Positions 1,826 through 16,563 of a stretch of DNA of 64,000 nt are shown one piece after another (the stretch's first letter is position 1; the number at the start of each line of letters is the position of its first letter). This DNA is from Fidelibacterota bacterium (GTDB lineage: Bacteria; Fidelibacterota; UBA8477; JABMPR01), in contig JAERTG010000121.1 in the NCBI GenBank assembly GCA_016845065.1, forward strand, positions 1 to 64,000, in the 5' to 3' direction. The position numbers and the translations under genes are program-made. The notes under the pieces are model-generated. The model saw only the letters and a list, made by a program, of their open reading frames with translations. It ran no database searches and was not told where the DNA came from.

Positions 1826-2887
1826 CTATCTGAAGGACGGAGTCTCCATCCGGATAAATTGGTCGTAACAACGCTTACCAAAATATTCATAACCAACACT
1901 CTCTGATTTTTCCCCCGCCAGAACACTGTGAATAAAACCGTTTAACTCTACCTGTTCAGTATGAAAGATTCCACGAGTAGGATTCTGTTTAAGAAGAATC
2001 AAGACCTGGTCGTCTTTTGAGCGATACTGAATAATTTCTTCTTGAATATCCGTTTTAGCTAAGAAGCGGTTCTCCCCTAATTCAGTAATCATCATTTTTG
2101 AACGGTACCAGGTGCCACCGGTAGCACTTACAAAGGGCTTTCCCTCATATAGGGCTATACTGTCATTGTAGGCAAAGACGGTGAGGTGATTATCCTCATC
2201 AGAATTGAGCCAGGAGTCTATTTTTCTCCCAATGGCTGCATTATAACCATAGTTGCTATCGATAAACCCAATTCGCTTTATCCATCTCGGGATCATCTCA
2301 CGTGATTCGATGAGACCATTGATAAAACTCCCGCCACCACTATGACTAATTAAGAAAACTCTGGCATGAGGATACATGGATCTAAGTGAGTCAGTCACCT
2401 TGGTAATCATGGCACCATAATTTATATGAGACTCCTTCCAGGCTGGCCAACTCAGCTCAGGAGCTTCAAGATAGACTACCGTATATCGCTCTGAAGTGTT
2501 TTCCCTTAGCCATTTGATCTGCGCATCGATATGCTGGATATTGAAATGCCAATCATCGGTCTTATGCTTCCCCATGGTCCATTCAATACTATTGCCATTG
2601 GGAAGGGCATATAGAATCAGCGTCCGTGGGGAGTCGAATAACCCCTCAGTTTCATAGGGATCATCTACTACCACCCGAATACTATCCAAAATATATAATT
2701 CACTATATGGCGACTTTGGCTCTACACCGATGAGCCCATCGGCTTCTGCAACTATTTCACTCCCTTCCTGGGCAGGCATGCCCGGGAGTCGAATTGACCG
2801 ATCATCAACAATGGGAAAATTATTAGGATTGCCGCAATTAAAAATAACAATCCCAGAGATAATGGATATCCAGTGAAAATATTTCAT
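1826..2887 (-). CDS. Putative lipoprotein with alpha/beta-hydrolase features
   Basis: This 353-residue protein begins with a hydrophobic signal ending in VIFNCGNPN, a plausible though imperfect lipobox, so it is probably membrane-anchored. A nucleophile-elbow-like SHSGGGSF sits in a context resembling alpha/beta hydrolases (RVFLISHSGGGSFINGL), preceded by a strand and a segment reading VVYLEAPELSWPAWK. The start is the ATG at 2887, which follows GGGAGGAAAGG; an upstream TTG at 2908 lies before that ribosome site. An esterase, peptidase or depolymerase role is possible, but I do not recognise a named family. It is convergent with the cold-shock gene. Confidence 0.6.
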   Translation of the reverse strand: MKYFHWISIISGIVIFNCGNPNNFPIVDDRSIRLPGMPAQEGSEIVAEADGLIGVEPKSPYSELYILDSIRVVVDDPYETEGLFDSPRTLILYALPNGNSIEWTMGKHKTDDWHFNIQHIDAQIKWLRENTSERYTVVYLEAPELSWPAWKESHINYGAMITKVTDSLRSMYPHARVFLISHSGGGSFINGLIESREMIPRWIKRIGFIDSNYGYNAAIGRKIDSWLNSDEDNHLTVFAYNDSIALYEGKPFVSATGGTWYRSKMMITELGENRFLAKTDIQEEIIQYRSKDDQVLILLKQNPTRGIFHTEQVELNGFIHSVLAGEKSESVGYEYFGKRCYDQFIRMETPSFR

Positions 2888-2923
2888 GATACAACCTTTC
2901 CTCCCCAATTAAGGTTCTACGTA

Positions 2924-3646
2924 TCAGTTAGATTTATACCCTGTGTCAACTAACAGGTTTTTGCTTTTCCGGGCTTCGGTGACCAGGGCATCACAGCGTT
3001 CATTCTCAGTATTTCCAGCATGCCCTTTTACCCAGCGAAACTCAACCTCATGATCACGAAGTAGTTCAATCAACTCTTCCCAGAGGTCGATATTTTCCGG
3101 GCGTTTCCCATCGGACTTCTTCCAGCCTCTTTTTTTCCATCCGTATACCCAACGTTTGGTGATGGAATCCACAACATATTTTGAATCAGTATGCAGAATA
3201 ACTTTGGAAGGTTCATTCAGTGCCTGCAGCGCAACGATTACTGCCATCATCTCCATACGGTTATTGGTGGTTAGCTGATAACCTGCAGACAACTCTTTGC
3301 GCTTTCTGCCCTTTTGCAGGACGATGCCATATCCTCCTACACCCGGGTTGGGTGAGGCGCCTCCATCGGTGTGAATTATGATCATTCCACTGGATGCAGA
3401 CGAGGATGTTTTTAGTCCGTTTGAACTTATAGCTGCTTGTGTCTTGATTAGGTCGATGAGAGGCTGTGCCACGGGTTCTTTTGCTGTGAGGACACAATCT
3501 CTTAGCCACTCAATGGCTTCGGTCCTGCGAGAGAAACTTTTATACTTTGCTCCCTTAAATCCTTTTACCTGGAGAGAGGCTGTATCCCAGGAATCATAAA
3601 TCCCAGGTTTATGCCCCTGAAAAACCGCATATACTTTCTTGCTCAT
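2924..3646 (-). CDS. rnhA: Ribonuclease HI with N-terminal hybrid-binding domain
   Basis: The protein degrades the RNA strand of RNA-DNA hybrids. Residues 1-50 (VYAVFQGHKPGIYDSW, then FKGAKYKSF and EAIEWL) match the hybrid-binding or viroplasmin-like domain found at the N-terminus of many RNase H1 proteins. Residues 88-235 are the catalytic domain, with the metal ligands Asp94 (HTDGGA), Glu132 (NNRMEMMAV), Asp154 (LHTDSKYV) and Asp219 (ERCDAL) all present. A Ser/Thr-rich linker separates the two. At 240 residues it has the two-domain RNase H1 size rather than the 155 residues of E. coli RnhA. The ribosome site is weak. Confidence 0.95.
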   Translation of the reverse strand: MSKKVYAVFQGHKPGIYDSWDTASLQVKGFKGAKYKSFSRRTEAIEWLRDCVLTAKEPVAQPLIDLIKTQAAISSNGLKTSSSASSGMIIIHTDGGASPNPGVGGYGIVLQKGRKRKELSAGYQLTTNNRMEMMAVIVALQALNEPSKVILHTDSKYVVDSITKRWVYGWKKRGWKKSDGKRPENIDLWEELIELLRDHEVEFRWVKGHAGNTENERCDALVTEARKSKNLLVDTGYKSN

Positions 3647-7537: not shown

Positions 7538-7566
7538 TTGACAATCACTCGATCTCAGGATAACCT
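7538..7566 (+). promoter_or_regulatory. Probable sigma-70-type promoter of the B12 uptake unit
   Basis: A consensus TTGACA at 7538-7543 is followed after exactly 17 bases by TAACCT at 7561-7566. A start near 7573 would place the cobalamin riboswitch at the very 5' end of the message. This is a sequence match only. Confidence 0.6.
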
Positions 7567-7591
7567 AACAGCGATTTTTGTAAACGTCTCA

Positions 7592-7746
7592 TAGCACAAG
7601 GAAGCTCGTGAAAATCGGGCACAGTCGCGCTACTGTAACCAGGGACAATGCCGATATCACAATAAATCATCAGATTTATTGGGTTTGCCACTTCAAATCG
7701 AGGGAAGGCATCGGCGGAGGATGATCTGGAAGTCAGGATACTTGGC
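7592..7746 (+). ncRNA. Cobalamin (B12) riboswitch
   Basis: The conserved cobalamin-aptamer blocks occur in order: AAGGAAGCTCGTGAAAATC, then GGGCACAGTCGCGCTACTGT, then a variable arm with a hairpin near 7650-7682, then GAGGGAAGGC, GGAGGATGATCTGGAAG and TCAGGATACTTGGC. This is the standard B12-box arrangement of RF00174. It sits between a good promoter and a BtuB-like receptor, so B12 binding would be expected to switch the receptor unit off. The expression platform probably includes the ribosome site near 7774-7782 and the terminator at 7823-7850. Confidence 0.93.
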
Positions 7747-7787
7747 TTAGAGAATTTCCATGAACCTTCGCGAGAAAAGGGACCGGC

Positions 7788-9899
7788 ATGATGCGCCTGA
7801 GAATCAGAACACATTCAAAAGTAAGCCCCAACTTGAGACGGGGCTTTTTTTATGTCCTATCTACAATTTTTCTATTTCCTACAGCGCTACTTTCCTCAGA
7901 ATCAAAAATTAATAATAGTTACTTACAGGGTCGAACCCTTGATCTCAATGGTCAGATTATCCCCTACGTTTCCCTGATATTTCAAAAATCTGAAATCTTC
8001 CTCCTGTCCGATGAACATGGACACTTCAGCTACAGCTCAACTTTCGTTGAGAACGACTCTGTCTTCATCCAACGCATTGGTTATAAAAATGAAATGCTGC
8101 TGGTAGATGAGCTCTTCCGATCACGTGTCATCAAGTTGACACCGGATGTTCTTCAAATGGAATCCATACACGTAAAAGGAGAAGCCAATACAGATGGGAT
8201 TCTAGCTATTCTTGGTCGTCACACAAAGACCCAGGGTTCAGCAGCCAGAGATCACAAAAATATGCTGACTCGTATTCCTGGTATGACAATCAAAAGTTAC
8301 GGTGGGCCTGCTGGTATCAGTACACTGAGTATGGATGGTGGTCCCAGTTCCCATACGCTTGTCATGGTGAATGGAATTGATATTAGCTCTGCCCAGAATG
8401 GTGAGGCAGATCTCTCACAATTGCCCCTCCCCTTCATTGAAAGCATGAGCTATATCCCCTATGACATCACCCAATCGGGTGCAGGTGGTATTGATGGTGT
8501 CGTAAAACTGGAAACAGGTGATCAGCGAACCCATTTAAATATTAGCCAGGGTAGTTTTGGTCATCAGGCATATGATCTTTATCTGAATAATCAGATCCAA
8601 GGATTCTGGACTTCAGTCCAGGTGGGTGAACGGTTTGAGAAGGGGAATTACCCTGTAATTTGGGATGGGAATAAGAGCTATCGGAAAAACAACCAGCTCG
8701 CTCAGCAGTTTGGTGCATTGACATTACGGAAAATGATAAGATCTGACCTCTACCTGCAACTTATTGCCATGACCTCACATCAGTCCAGGGGCGTCGCTGG
8801 GTTAATCTGGTCGCCAGACACCATTTCACATCGGGATGACCAGTTAACTCTCTTAGGCACAACCCTGGGTTGGATTCGTAAGACTGGCAGCAGCCATTTG
8901 CACATCACATCCAGGCAATCCAAAGAGAAGTATGACAACCCATACTTAAATATCCACAGCAACCACTTCGTAGAGGGCCACCAGATAAATCTCGAGGATA
9001 AACGACAGATTAGTAACAATATTGAGATGAAATCAGACTGGCAGATCAAAATCGACAGAATCAGAAGCGTCAATACTGGAGATCATAGTAGATCAAGTCT
9101 CAGTGGCTCCCTCGCACCTACACTACAAACATTTGGGAATATCCGTTTGATACCAAAGGTGAAACTCCATTATAGTCCTGATCTTTATCAGGAGGTACTC
9201 AACGATTTTCAAATCCACGTCCCAATAGGAGTCGGTCCCCTATCCAGCATTGCATTTAGTTCAGGAGAGGTTTTCAAGTATCCCAGTTTTAATGATCAGT
9301 TCTGGGAACCAGGTGGCAATCCCAATTTGAAACCGGAGGAAACCGAGGTCACGACAATTCAATCCAGTTTTGATCTCAATAGATTCGGCTCACTCCATCT
9401 GCAGTGGCAAATTAAACGGAGTCACAACCTCATCCAGTGGATGCCGGTTCTCTCATACTGGCAACCTGGGAACGTTCAATCAGCCACACGAGAAAGTAGC
9501 AAAGCGCTCTGGCAGGTAGAATTAAGAGATATCAATGTATCTGCATTTGCTCACTACACCCTTATTCGAACCCGCGATCATGATCGTGAGCTGCCTTTAA
9601 GGTATGCCCCTCAGCGCACCGCTGCCTTTGGCTTGATCTGGTCACCAGCCCAGTTTGAGATAAATTTTGAGTACAATTACGTATCAGATCGCATCAGCAT
9701 GTATGGCTATCCCGAAGATGTCATGATTGAAGCAACAGGATTATGGTCTGGTAGTCTTGCTCACAGTTGGAATGGCAATCTTGGTCAACTGACTCTGATT
9801 GTTTCAGCTGATAATCTTGAAGATACAAGATATGAAACTATTAAAGGTTACCCGGAACCCGGACGCACTTATAGAATCTCAACAAAATTTTCTAAATAA
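7788..9899 (+). CDS. btuB: TonB-dependent outer-membrane receptor, BtuB-like (cobalamin)
   Basis: This is a TonB-dependent outer-membrane transporter, assigned to cobalamin from the riboswitch upstream. After a signal peptide (FFYVLSTIFLFPTALLSS) comes a carboxypeptidase-regulatory-like domain (GRTLDLNGQIIPYVSLIF) typical of FCB receptors, then a plug domain (RIPGMTIKSYGGPAGIS, MVNGIDISSAQNG) and a beta-barrel ending in the aromatic strand TYRISTKFSK. 703 residues is near normal for BtuB. The start is uncertain: the ATGs at 7788 and 7791 follow GAAAAGGGA, but a rho-independent terminator covers the next codons, and an in-frame TTG at 7833 would give a shorter signal peptide beginning LRRGFFYVLST. 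The BtuG-like gene follows by 24 bases. Confidence 0.87.
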   Translation: MMRLRIRTHSKVSPNLRRGFFYVLSTIFLFPTALLSSESKINNSYLQGRTLDLNGQIIPYVSLIFQKSEIFLLSDEHGHFSYSSTFVENDSVFIQRIGYKNEMLLVDELFRSRVIKLTPDVLQMESIHVKGEANTDGILAILGRHTKTQGSAARDHKNMLTRIPGMTIKSYGGPAGISTLSMDGGPSSHTLVMVNGIDISSAQNGEADLSQLPLPFIESMSYIPYDITQSGAGGIDGVVKLETGDQRTHLNISQGSFGHQAYDLYLNNQIQGFWTSVQVGERFEKGNYPVIWDGNKSYRKNNQLAQQFGALTLRKMIRSDLYLQLIAMTSHQSRGVAGLIWSPDTISHRDDQLTLLGTTLGWIRKTGSSHLHITSRQSKEKYDNPYLNIHSNHFVEGHQINLEDKRQISNNIEMKSDWQIKIDRIRSVNTGDHSRSSLSGSLAPTLQTFGNIRLIPKVKLHYSPDLYQEVLNDFQIHVPIGVGPLSSIAFSSGEVFKYPSFNDQFWEPGGNPNLKPEETEVTTIQSSFDLNRFGSLHLQWQIKRSHNLIQWMPVLSYWQPGNVQSATRESSKALWQVELRDINVSAFAHYTLIRTRDHDRELPLRYAPQRTAAFGLIWSPAQFEINFEYNYVSDRISMYGYPEDVMIEATGLWSGSLAHSWNGNLGQLTLIVSADNLEDTRYETIKGYPEPGRTYRISTKFSK
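7823..7850 (+). terminator. Rho-independent terminator/attenuator of the riboswitch
   Basis: Arms AAGCCCC and GGGGCTT enclose a 10-base loop and are followed by a run of Ts. It lies 76 bases past the riboswitch aptamer and inside the first codons of the receptor frame. Bases 7834-7840 (TGAGACG) are complementary to 7585-7591 (CGTCTCA) at the 5' edge of the aptamer, a possible antiterminator pairing. Confidence 0.7.
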
Positions 9900-9923
9900 C
9901 CCCTAAAGAAAGATATTGAACCC

Positions 9924-11255
9924 GTGAAAAATAAAAAATCTGTAATTATCATTTTAGTCATGCTACTCTTCACACTCTCTCCTGTCCAGGCAGGCAAATA
10001 TTATGTCCTATGTGAAGGAAATTTTGGACAGGCCAATGCCTCGCTATGGTCAATTGATGAATCACTCCAGAACCTTGAGGGTCCACTCATCTGGAACACC
10101 GCAACCAATCCACTCGGTGATGTAGGACAATCATTGACCTTGTTTGATCATAGCTTGTATGTGGTGATGAACGGATCTCATAAAGTTCGTGTCCTGGATC
10201 TAAACTCTGGTGAGACTCACATCGCGGATATTGATCTTCCAGACTCGAGTCCCCGCTATATGGTCGTTCATCGTGAGTCTGGTCTGGGATATATCAGTAG
10301 CTGGACACTCTCAGCCCTCCTCATCGTTGACCTAGACAATAATACGGTTATCGATACCTTTTCGGTTGGTGCTCGCCCTGAAGGCTTACTCATAGTCGGT
10401 GATGAATTGTTTGCAAGCATCGTCTCGACAAGTGATGGCCTTGGTTCGGAGAACAGCGTATTGAGGATAGATTTGTCTGGTGAATCCCCGGAAGTTACCC
10501 ATGATTATAGTGTAATCCCTGGACCGGGATCCATGACATTGCTTGCCAATGAACTCTATGTCACTTCAATTAATTATAATGATGCCTGGGAAAGTTTTAG
10601 CGGGACATCAAAAATCAATCTAACTGATCATACAGTAACAACTCTTGACCATGGCTATTACACAAATTTTGTTGCTGATCTAAACCTTATAAATGGCGAA
10701 GTATATCGCACATTTGGCACTTCTGTCGTCCCTCTTAACGAGGATTTGAGTCTGAATAATACTGGTGCGATTGGAAATATTAGCGGTATTTATAGTCATT
10801 CCATAGCGAAAAATAATTTGTTGATCGGATCCAGTGATTTTGTTGCACCTGACCTGGTATCAATCCTATCCATCGATGGTCAGGAGATAGCCAGTTTTAA
10901 TGTAGGCGCATTCCCCAGCCAAATTATTTACTACTCATCTGACGCTGTCTCCACTGACCAGAAGGTTGATCTGCCTACTTCCTTTTCTCTAGGAAACAAT
11001 TACCCCAATCCCTTCAACCCATCTACATCAATTCCATTTAACCTGTATCTCGCCGATCATGTACGACTGAGCATTTATGATATCAGTGGGCGAATGGTAG
11101 CAACTCTCATTGACAATCACCTCGGAGCAGGAAACTATTTTTCAAATTGGGATGGGAGGAATGCGAAGGGACAGCCAGTGAGCAGTGGTATTTATCATGC
11201 GATTTTACATTCAAGCTCACAGACCAGTTCTATCAAACTTAATCTGATAAAATAA
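9924..11255 (+). CDS. Secreted BtuG-like beta-propeller (DUF5074/YncE-like) with type IX sorting-like domain
   Basis: The start is a GTG followed by a clear signal peptide (residues 1-23, ending SPVQA). Residues 24-340 resemble the DUF5074/YncE beta-propellers: YYVLCEGNFGQANASLW at the N-terminus, PLGDVGQSL, then repeated blades with SPRYMVV, IVDLDNNTVIDTFSVGARP and EGLLIVGDELFAS. Such propellers include BtuG, the surface cobalamin-binding partner of BtuB in Bacteroides. The last 85 residues (NNYPNPFNPST, then YDISGRMVATL, SSGIYHAIL) are a type IX-like C-terminal domain, suggesting surface attachment by that route instead of a lipid anchor. It lies 24 bases behind the receptor under the B12 riboswitch. 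Cobalamin binding is inferred from family and context. Confidence 0.8.
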   Translation: MKNKKSVIIILVMLLFTLSPVQAGKYYVLCEGNFGQANASLWSIDESLQNLEGPLIWNTATNPLGDVGQSLTLFDHSLYVVMNGSHKVRVLDLNSGETHIADIDLPDSSPRYMVVHRESGLGYISSWTLSALLIVDLDNNTVIDTFSVGARPEGLLIVGDELFASIVSTSDGLGSENSVLRIDLSGESPEVTHDYSVIPGPGSMTLLANELYVTSINYNDAWESFSGTSKINLTDHTVTTLDHGYYTNFVADLNLINGEVYRTFGTSVVPLNEDLSLNNTGAIGNISGIYSHSIAKNNLLIGSSDFVAPDLVSILSIDGQEIASFNVGAFPSQIIYYSSDAVSTDQKVDLPTSFSLGNNYPNPFNPSTSIPFNLYLADHVRLSIYDISGRMVATLIDNHLGAGNYFSNWDGRNAKGQPVSSGIYHAILHSSSQTSSIKLNLIK

Positions 11256-14758: not shown

Positions 14759-15307
14759 TTATTTACGCTGATTGTTCCAGTAGACTTCTTGATTGCCAGA
14801 CCGATGATTTTCATGCCTGGCCATGACAAACAAAAAGTCAGAAAGCCGGTTCAAAAACTGAATGATTTCAGCCTTTACTTTCTCCTGTTGATTCAACCTG
14901 ATGACACTGCGTTCAGCTCGACGACAGATGGTTCGTGCCAGATGCAGTGTTGCAGCCACAGATGTTCCACCGGGCAAAATAAATTCCTCCAGAGCTGGTA
15001 ATTCAGAATTCAATTCATCAATGCTGTGCTCCAAGTCTGCAATGTGCTCAGGAGTGATTAGACCTGTGACCATTTCCGCTGACGCCAACTCACCCCCCAG
15101 GTCGAATAGGGTGTGCTGAACCCCTGCTAGAATCTCAACGAGTTGCGCATCTAAGGGCTGGGTGAGAACCAGTCCAATCATACTATTCAGCTCATCAACA
15201 TCACCATAGGCACAGACACGTAACGAATCTTTAGGGACTTCTTCACCATTAGCCAAACGTGTTTTTCCATTATCCCCGGTACGCGTATATATTTTTGTGA
15301 GTCTCAT
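14759..15307 (-). CDS. pduO: Cob(I)alamin adenosyltransferase, PduO type
   Basis: This ATP:cob(I)alamin adenosyltransferase makes adenosylcobalamin. PduO-family motifs are all present: YTRTGDNGKT (ATP binding, residues 7-16), GDVDELNS, ILPGG, ARTICRRAERSV and FLNRLSDFLFVMAR. The length of 182 residues is normal. The ribosome site GAGGT precedes the ATG. It lies about 3.5 kb from the B12 uptake unit, so uptake and conversion of B12 are encoded in the same neighbourhood, though not in one operon. No adenosylcobalamin-dependent enzyme occurs in the window. Confidence 0.95.
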   Translation of the reverse strand: MRLTKIYTRTGDNGKTRLANGEEVPKDSLRVCAYGDVDELNSMIGLVLTQPLDAQLVEILAGVQHTLFDLGGELASAEMVTGLITPEHIADLEHSIDELNSELPALEEFILPGGTSVAATLHLARTICRRAERSVIRLNQQEKVKAEIIQFLNRLSDFLFVMARHENHRSGNQEVYWNNQRK

Positions 15308-15333: not shown

Positions 15334-16563
15334 TCATAAGCTTAAAACATTTCTACTAACGTTTTCCAGCAATACTACTGCAGCCCATAAAATAGTAAAA
15401 ACAACTGTAGACCAAATAGATAGAGATGGTCTGAGAATGCGATAATTGCGGTCCACCCTGGTGAAAATAATTCGAATCAGGTTGAATACCCACCCAACGC
15501 TCACACCAACAATCCCAGCCAAAACAGCCGTTACTATAAATGAATCTCCAGCAATATACACCAATGGGTAGAATGCAAAAAATAGTGACACCAGGATAAC
15601 ACTACTGGTAAAACGGGGTCGCTCAAACACCAAACCGCTCAATCCTGCTTTGTCTAGGCCCTCATTTTCATTGGATTCAATCATGACAAAGAGGCCAATT
15701 AATGAGACAAAGAGAAGGATGCGTTGAAGTCCGATGAGCTCCTGGGATGGTTGGAAGAAATTCTCCAGACCTGTTCCCAGTAAGAGCGTTTCCTGTGCAA
15801 GAAATAAATATAAGAACTGTTTGGTAATACTTCTGCTCCGGAGACCGAACACCAATAAACTAATCATCGCTAATCCAATAAGGATCAATTGCGTATTTGA
15901 AGGTGGATACGTATTTGAAATACCCAAAACATGACCTGGAATGCCGGATAATGTGTAATGACCGTGCCAGGCGATGAGCATACCATACAATGCTATCAGC
16001 GGTGCAGGAACACTCAACCTTGGCCATCTTTTCTCCAGGTGAACTACCAGGATTACCAGAAAGAAAAGATCAGGAAGCAATTGGACCTGGTTCTCCCATA
16101 AACCCATTACAGCAGTTACGAACCAAACCCACAAGAGATTCTTTTCCACAATGCTTAATGAATAGGATTTATTTGCAACCGTTCTTTCGAGTTCCAGGAG
16201 TACCAGCCAGGTTCCACCCATAATAAGAAATCTGCTTAAGCTCCACTCAATGAACAGATCATGCGAAAGCGGTGCTAACACGACTGCAGCCAAATAGAGT
16301 ATTAAAGAATACATATGAGCTGAATTCTTTGATGTTCCTGAATAATAGGCACTTAGATGTAGTGCAAATAGCATCATGCCGAGGTGGAAAATAATTCCCG
16401 GAGCAACTAGGGGTAAACGGAGTTGGGGAAAAATGCCTACAGTGAGAATGATAATTGTAACAAAGGCTAACATGTGCTGCCGAGCAGCTGAAATGAATCT
16501 TCCAGAGAATTGGACAAGAATTCCAGATAATAGCAGGTATCCTGTCACCGCTGCACTGATCAA
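15334..16563 (-). CDS. Multi-pass membrane protein, unknown
   Basis: A highly hydrophobic 409-residue protein with at least eleven predicted membrane segments and no recognised motif. Visible features are short polar loops (LELERTVANKSYS, VHLEKRWPRLS) and a C-terminal stretch with RIIFTRVDRNYRILRPS between helices. It begins with a TTG at 16563, which has GGAG 9 bases upstream. It follows the 130-residue gene by 35 bases and precedes the adenosyltransferase by 26, so it may belong to one transcript with either. No function can be assigned. Confidence 0.55.
   Translation of the reverse strand: MISAAVTGYLLLSGILVQFSGRFISAARQHMLAFVTIIILTVGIFPQLRLPLVAPGIIFHLGMMLFALHLSAYYSGTSKNSAHMYSLILYLAAVVLAPLSHDLFIEWSLSRFLIMGGTWLVLLELERTVANKSYSLSIVEKNLLWVWFVTAVMGLWENQVQLLPDLFFLVILVVHLEKRWPRLSVPAPLIALYGMLIAWHGHYTLSGIPGHVLGISNTYPPSNTQLILIGLAMISLLVFGLRSRSITKQFLYLFLAQETLLLGTGLENFFQPSQELIGLQRILLFVSLIGLFVMIESNENEGLDKAGLSGLVFERPRFTSSVILVSLFFAFYPLVYIAGDSFIVTAVLAGIVGVSVGWVFNLIRIIFTRVDRNYRILRPSLSIWSTVVFTILWAAVVLLENVSRNVLSL

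Follow-up and report, generated by a model that had tools for sequence, protein, structure and literature searches.

The window analyzed here is a stretch of 64,000 nucleotides from a Fidelibacterota bacterium, whose phylum is Candidatus Neomarinimicrobiota (contig JAERTG010000121.1; assembly of 4.05 Mb in 182 contigs, 93% complete). It carries a cobalamin riboswitch, a BtuB-like TonB-dependent receptor and, 24 bases behind the receptor gene, a beta-propeller which we assign to the BtuG family and which ends in a tail of the kind recognized by the type IX secretion system (T9SS). The riboswitch, the gene order, the family and fold of the propeller, its tail, the T9SS genes and the changes of anchor described below were all obtained by computation. 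The order aptamer, receptor, propeller had been given in a preliminary description of the window, and Rfam and the open reading frames (ORFs) bear it out; position 7592, with which that description let the region begin, lies inside the aptamer. The motifs YVLCEGNFG, PLGDVGQS, SPRYMVV and NNYPNPFNPST are all present in the propeller ORF. We read the locus (Table 1) as a cobalamin-regulated outer-membrane pair for the uptake of vitamin B12 whose BtuG-family lid would be displayed by the T9SS, and put the probability of this reading at roughly 0.8.

Table 1. Features of the riboswitch, receptor and propeller locus, in positions of the window.
Feature	Position	Strand	Basis
Cobalamin riboswitch aptamer (RF00174)	7555..7763	+	Rfam 58.8 bits, gathering score 31.5, E 5e-12
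Post-aptamer hairpin CCTTCGCGAGAAAAGG	7765..7781	+	read from sequence
BtuB-like TonB-dependent receptor, 703 aa	7788..9899	+	Plug match; PDB matches
Intrinsic-terminator-like hairpin	7823..7851	+	7-bp stem, 10-base loop, run of 7 T; within first 22 btuB codons
BtuG-family propeller with T9SS-type tail, 443 aa, GTG start	9924..11255	+	profile, fold, tail model
Secretory signal peptide ending VQA/GK, no cysteine	9924..9992	+	sequence; site by eye; N-termini compared
BtuG-type propeller, residues 26-338	9999..10937	+	alignment, PDB profile matches, Foldseek
Loop CEGNFGQANAS, equivalent of BtuG2 Asn54-Thr64	10011..10043	+	alignment to 8bmx_D
T9SS type A-like C-terminal sorting domain	11001..11252	+	TIGR04183, residues 360-439

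To place the propeller, a profile was built from 30 members of the phylum and run against the PDB sequences. It matched 13 of them at E≤1e-5, the top 12 at values between 5e-31 and 2e-28. Ten of these 12 are BtuG by title or, for 3dsm, by the excerpt of PMC6143338 used here, and the other two (8baz, 8puj) bear generic names and score like the BtuG entries. The 13th, 1l0q at 4e-14, is an archaeal surface-layer propeller and represents the next family. The AlphaFold model (36 sequences; predicted local distance difference test 88.1, predicted template modeling score 0.74) consists of the propeller, a linker of low confidence and a separate C-terminal beta domain. A Foldseek search against the PDB returned BtuG structures at all of ranks 1 to 15, with template modeling scores (target) of 0.77 to 0.85 at ranks 1 to 11; several of the top matches were solved with cobalamin bound. 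By profile and predicted model the window propeller thus falls into the BtuG family, and the BtuG-type propeller expected in the preliminary description has been found. An independent invention of a B12 propeller was considered and rejected, as profile and fold are BtuG-like.

According to the excerpt of PMC10404256 at hand, the loop Asn54-Thr64 of BtuG2 holds the cobalamin; Tyr316, Tyr239, Asp334 and Trp194 are the BtuG2 residues compared from the same source. Their equivalents are a reading of the profile alignment, in which Trp272 could not be aligned, and the counts leave out three sequences of a far branch (L096, L103, L104; L numbers denote fetched loci) that were dropped after the tree was seen. 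Within the remaining 70 core rows the gripping loop is conserved (E31 and G32 in 70/70), the equivalent of Tyr316, Tyr290, is kept in 68 and that of Asp334, Asp305, in 64, and at the position of Tyr239, Tyr218 in the window, 63 rows have Tyr and seven have Phe. The far branch itself, found in a single genome from the genus of the window and in two from its order, is a very divergent tailed propeller (branch length 2.8) that follows a receptor. Two of these loci show a riboswitch, and a contig end truncates the third; the propeller of L104 has an archaeal surface-layer propeller as its sole PDB match.

The receptor contains a Plug domain (PF07715, 37.5 bits; cut-off 23.9), and its matches in the PDB at E≤0.001 are ten sequences, each of them a BtuB or the receptor from a Bacteroides BtuBG complex. 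It is built of a plug and a barrel, with BtuB as the nearest solved relatives. The tail of the propeller lies above the cut-off of TIGR04183 (32.7 bits against 23) and of FlgD_ig (35.8 against 27). Neither a lipobox cysteine nor a lipoprotein export signal was found in the window propeller; because the cysteine is missing from the signal peptide, we file the protein as a BtuG-family propeller with another anchor and not as a BtuG lipoprotein. This agrees with the earlier claim of a T9SS-type tail in place of the lipobox. Both marks of a T9SS type A substrate, a C-terminal domain above the TIGR04183 cut-off and a signal peptide (judged by eye), are present. The window assembly (G000; G numbers denote genomes) also encodes SprA (595 bits; cut-off 200) and PorU (683 bits; cut-off 420), and transport of the propeller by the T9SS is predicted.

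The phylum sample comprised 149 Neomarinimicrobiota genomes searched with the propeller protein. As the T9SS tail by itself gives matches in all 149, only those listed matches that cover the propeller were kept, i.e. 73 loci besides the window, which were fetched with their flanks. Three partial propeller matches lie outside the 73 (two in G085, one in G094), and weaker propellers occur in G004, G007 and G147, genomes outside these loci as well. The propeller family is found in at least 76 of the 149 genomes. SprA was matched in 147 of them (145 above cut-off) and PorU lies above cut-off in 110; a PorU tally at E≤0.001 was not used, as the PorU profile includes the tail. When named genomes were scanned with the propeller alignment, 39 loci came up, most of them from Candidatus Neomarinimicrobiota and two weak ones among them from Bacteroidetes.

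Of the 73 related loci, 65 give an Rfam match to the riboswitch, and the eight others (L033, L043, L045, L060, L073, L095, L102, L103) are all cut by a contig end before its expected place. No locus that is long enough lacks the riboswitch, which is what the preliminary description had expected of the gene pair in relatives. In 62 of the 73 a receptor lies directly upstream on the same strand, mostly within 60 bases and at most 355 bases away. Four of the remaining 11 (L060, L073, L095, L102) start at a contig end. The other seven (L093, L094, L097-L101) have a lone lipoprotein-type propeller directly after the riboswitch, with no receptor in between. The arrangement returns in genomes throughout the phylum and so goes beyond coincidence, and these loci support a partnership of the BtuB/BtuG type under a cobalamin riboswitch outside Bacteroides.

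The anchor was classified in the 73 propellers with a readable start, including the window and excluding L095, which is cut at its start. A T9SS tail is found in 33 of them (among these L043, counted as tailed, whose contig ends just after NYPNPFN), a cysteine at the end of the signal peptide in 35, a dockerin-like tail in three, both cysteine and tail in one and neither in one. The chain of the 35 cysteine forms stops no more than a few residues from where the propeller ends. Cysteine and tail are mutually exclusive (counts of 35, 33, 1 and 1; Fisher p 1.7e-17 with the dockerin forms excluded, the rows not being independent); L054 is by its sequence tailed and yet has a lipobox-like cysteine. 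A stricter lipobox pattern is missed by 10 of the 35 cysteine forms, with QRC in L048 among the odd ones, and the lipoprotein class was therefore defined as a cysteine after a hydrophobic stretch. An acidic residue occurs within six positions after the cysteine in all 36 rows that have such a cysteine, and at least two occur in 21, which fits a surface-export signal but one must keep in mind that it is no proof. The three propellers with a dockerin-like tail (L078, L083, L089) belong to one family of the phylum and point to a possible third mode of display; PF00404 is above its cut-off in L078 and L089 and reaches 20.0 against 22.9 bits in L083.

The two main anchors seem to have replaced each other several times among relatives. 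A tree of the propeller core, from which L095 was excluded as from all trees, requires at least seven changes between tailed and cysteine forms, or eight if the dockerin-like class is included; its well-supported branches alone force five changes for the tailed and three for the cysteine group. The BtuB tree, from a short search, requires at least eight changes, and its starred branches force eight and six. A single clade of tailed forms, with the 30 core members set against the 35 forms with a cysteine, was rejected (approximately unbiased test, p-AU 4.2e-5; L096, L103 and L104, dropped after the tree was seen, are not included). Even the clade that holds the window's genus is mixed, with a cysteine in L048 and L055 and a tail in 13 rows. 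The genome of L048, G049, retains most downstream neighbors of the tailed members of the genus, and therefore the swap happened in place. Two simpler accounts were rejected: the tail is not a mere lineage marker, as both anchors occur within one genus, and loss of the T9SS does not stand behind the lipoprotein forms of G020 and G049 in the window's genus, where SprA and PorU are above cut-off. The T9SS appears to be available to lipoprotein and tailed forms alike.

A close view of such changes is offered by L049, L057 and L062, which are about 90-93% identical in DNA and differ just in their ends. L049 combines a signal peptide with a tail and L057 a lipobox with a tail, and in L062 a signal peptide is present and the tail is cleanly missing, with the flank resuming right after its place. 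In assemblies of this kind an individual locus could be a chimaera; chimaeras hardly account for an anchor pattern that extends over many families. One BtuG family with repeatedly exchanged anchors appears to be the better reading.

A second search was centered on one Bacteroidetes genome and covered 296 genomes of its phylum. The propeller is found at E≤1e-12 in 126 of these. Judged by eye, 24 of 31 Bacteroidota loci have a lipoprotein-type start and seven a secretory signal peptide with a T9SS-type tail; the only one of the seven that was scored, L182, reaches 41.9 bits with PF18962 (cut-off 27). All 20 loci fetched (the seven tailed and 13 of the 24 lipoprotein-type ones) have a riboswitch and a BtuB-profile receptor directly upstream. 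In L144 and L145, both from Bacteroidetes, no riboswitch was found in records that begin inside or just before the receptor. The lipid and the T9SS route thus seem to occur in both phyla. The "independent solution" for surface capture proposed in the preliminary description is not supported: the propeller is homologous to BtuG, lipoprotein forms are frequent in its phylum and found in its genus too, and tailed forms occur in Bacteroidota.

The riboswitch, whose score passes the gathering threshold (Table 1), is the only cobalamin riboswitch detected in the whole window assembly. A Shine-Dalgarno-like AAAGGG sits in the 3' arm of the post-aptamer hairpin, and the ATG of btuB follows. The CGCG of this hairpin could, as read from the sequence, pair with TCGCGC in loop L5 of the aptamer, which commonly serves as the platform of the kissing loop. 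The element is also present 3' of the aptamer in leaders of the genus, with variants elsewhere. The hairpin around AAAGGG and its pairing with L5 could represent a usual layout for translational switching.

A further hint towards the mode of control arises from the second, terminator-like hairpin inside the first btuB codons. Similar hairpins 3' of the aptamer occur in 23 of 59 leaders (L032-L040, L042, L048, L055, L096 and others) where 0.34 are expected from shuffles, in a scan that was designed after the window hairpin had been seen and with near-copies among the genus members, so that the 23 are not independent cases. An ATG upstream of the hairpin and in frame with btuB is found in 16 of the 23 (only just upstream in L046; in L042 the listed hairpin is shifted), five have only short leader ORFs of 9-34 codons, and two have no ATG. 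This pattern suggests a terminator that is gated by the riboswitch and coupled to translation, and we infer that blocked translation would expose it. A standard terminator scan does not list the window hairpin, as its loop limit is 8 and the loop has 10 bases, and finds three terminators against 3.4 in shuffles. A promoter scan gave nine hits against 9.5 in shuffles, and the folding energy of the 246-base leader (z -0.99) gives no signal by itself.

Taken as a mechanism, the riboswitch would leave the btuB start free when B12 is low, so that the btuB-btuG message is made. BtuB would serve as the TonB-dependent channel, and the propeller above it would be the lid that grips B12, as it is in Bacteroides. 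Its secretory signal peptide would export it, and type IX secretion would then bring it to the surface through the C-terminal tail. Binding of B12, action as a lid, surface location and attachment of the propeller we infer from these parts. In beta-propellers the closing blade usually brings the N- and C-termini near each other. An anchor moved from the N- to the C-terminus may therefore keep the side of the hinge, which could be the reason for its frequent exchange. A wider proposal would see in BtuG an old B12 lid of the Fibrobacteres-Chlorobi-Bacteroidetes (FCB) group with an exchangeable anchor module (lipid, T9SS or dockerin-like) that is swapped in place while the partnership with BtuB is kept. 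In Neomarinimicrobiota this lid would feed an importer other than BtuFCD, and the riboswitch would gate a terminator in the signal-peptide codons of btuB. We give this whole somewhat less than even odds.

Several results weigh against the uptake pair as we read it. The receptor misses the cut-off of the BtuB equivalog model TIGR01779 by far (98.7 bits; cut-off 599.7), for which reason we call it BtuB-like and not an equivalog. The propeller tail stays below the cut-off of Por_Secre_tail PF18962 (22.9 bits; cut-off 27) and could lead to release rather than attachment. At the position of BtuG2 Trp194 the window has Leu173, whereas 55 of the 70 core rows have Trp. Neither a FecCD-type permease (BtuC) nor a BtuF-type protein was found in the 93%-complete window assembly. 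Import of B12 itself is most likely, because the assembly encodes MetH (1302 bits) and gives no match to CbiH/CobJ of corrin-ring synthesis; here it also counts against us that CbiH/CobJ was the sole corrin-ring enzyme searched and that the control was above cut-off in only seven of 14 known genomes. CbiH/CobJ is above cut-off in none of the 149 phylum genomes (40 weak matches).

Missing contigs could hide BtuC and BtuF in one assembly, but hardly in most of 149. BtuC-type FecCD permeases are strong in two of the genomes and weakly above cut-off in 22 more, the latter being probably other permeases (270-310 aa); BtuF-type proteins occur in 23. Twenty extra riboswitch regions of the phylum, outside the 73 propeller loci, yielded no candidate for a phylum-wide inner-membrane transporter. 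A BtuB-profile receptor is present in 15 of them (once with a divergent propeller) and a propeller alone in two. In one region, L211 of G042, there is neither, and the contig carries FecCD and two BtuF-type matches, so that this one genome may have an importer of the ATP-binding cassette type. In L212 and L214 (G016, G062) the riboswitch lies upstream of genes that by eye resemble MetE and anaerobic ribonucleotide reductase, the expected B12-independent stand-ins. Further along the window a cobalamin adenosyltransferase gene (14759-15307, minus strand) adjoins a gene for a membrane protein of 409 aa without a Pfam match (15334-16563, minus strand). This pair is kept in eight of nine fetched regions of the genus, which share much gene order overall, so that the neighbor is weak evidence; a tenth region, from G003 of another genus, has no match.

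Other explanations of the locus have to be weighed. Release, and not attachment alone, is a possible fate of T9SS type A substrates. The tail might thus make the propeller a soluble binder of B12 that is shed and later comes back to BtuB, and the form in L062, which has a secretory signal peptide but lacks any anchor, would suit such a binder. We hold this to be unlikely: what relatives have instead of the tail is a lipid-type anchor, in G049 at the same chromosomal place, a role as lid requires attachment, and the order btuB-btuG is kept in 62 of the 73 loci. Less probable still is a general surface propeller of the YncE/YVTN kind without specificity for cobalamin that merely resides in the operon of a B12 receptor. 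Pfam DUF5074 reaches only 15.3 bits on the propeller, below its cut-off, NCBIfam matches include other propeller families, and the window lacks the equivalent of Trp194. Profile and fold searches, however, both place BtuG before other propellers, the gripping loop is well conserved, and the riboswitch is found in every long-enough locus of the 73 including the seven lone propellers.

Nearly all sources are metagenome assemblies, and L049, L057 and L062, three nearly identical loci, diverge only at their ends, so one could ask if the mixture of anchors reflects errors of assembly or binning and not real switches. This would be very surprising given that the ORFs are intact and that the same split recurs across numerous families of the phylum as well as among the Bacteroidota loci. 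Propeller and BtuB trees each need several switches, and the lipoprotein form of G049 stands at the chromosomal place of the genus's tailed form. The case for a real and conserved BtuG-family protein with a T9SS-type tail, a putative B12 lid, is strong with regard to anatomy and evolution.

If this is correct, the exchange of anchors amounts to an experiment by nature on the requirements of a surface lid, as the same core apparently works from a lipid or from a protein tag. Type IX secretion is mostly known for enzymes, adhesins and gliding; a T9SS-tailed BtuG would connect it to vitamin uptake. It also raises the question of how B12 crosses the inner membrane where BtuC is strongly matched in only two of 149 genomes. 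Neomarinimicrobiota are known mainly from the sea, and as at least 76 of the 149 genomes from such a phylum have the family, competition in the gut is unlikely as its general origin. The excerpt of Wexler et al. 2018 (PMC6143338) names the gut as one possible driver and confines BtuG to Bacteroidetes, on the basis of 313 gut genomes. By our sequence comparisons, a BtuG with an exchangeable anchor seems to occur outside that group.

The open-licence PMC literature yielded no report of a T9SS-tailed B12-uptake protein and nothing on cobalamin together with a type IX sorting domain or with DUF5074; BtuG and type IX secretion were co-mentioned only in a reference list, as far as the excerpt of that article extends. 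DUF4465 (BtuJ-type) proteins are described in the excerpt of PMC13398666 as accessory B12 binders beside B12 transporters in several clades. They resemble the window propeller as accessory binders and, in L145, in having a T9SS tail, but belong to another protein family, and none adjoins the pair among the window ORFs. In L145 the DUF4465 protein (2071-3036, tail above cut-off) lies between a TonB-receptor-like ORF, recognized by eye, and a lipoprotein-type BtuG, and is a second B12-binding family that bears such a tail.

Translation-linked control of B12 uptake has precedents. The btuB gene of E. coli has a translated regulatory region and a translation-linked B12 riboswitch. In M. tuberculosis B12 riboswitches are coupled to the translation of an upstream ORF (PMC11260477, in excerpt). 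The likeness to both is the coupling to translation of early codons or of a leader ORF; different is the intrinsic-terminator-like hairpin inside the first btuB codons or a short leader ORF. For Caldithrix, a riboswitch-controlled BtuB with BtuCDF has been described.

With T9SS type A substrates (TIGR04183) the window propeller shares the secretory signal peptide, the C-terminal sorting domain and the presence of SprA and PorU in the assembly; the T9SS proteins named by the matched NCBIfam models are secretion parts or proteases, unlike this propeller of B12 uptake. The closest counterparts are BtuB2-BtuG2 and the other BtuBG pairs of B. thetaiotaomicron (excerpts of PMC6143338 and PMC10404256), in which riboswitch, TonB receptor and propeller also stand side by side. 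The gripping loop and several pocket residues (PMC10404256, in excerpt) are conserved in the window, with Leu173 in the place of Trp194, and B12 salvage would be common to both. The host is a member of Neomarinimicrobiota and not of Bacteroidetes, BtuF and BtuC were not found in its assembly, and in place of the lipobox cysteine and its export signal the window propeller has a C-terminal T9SS-type tail.

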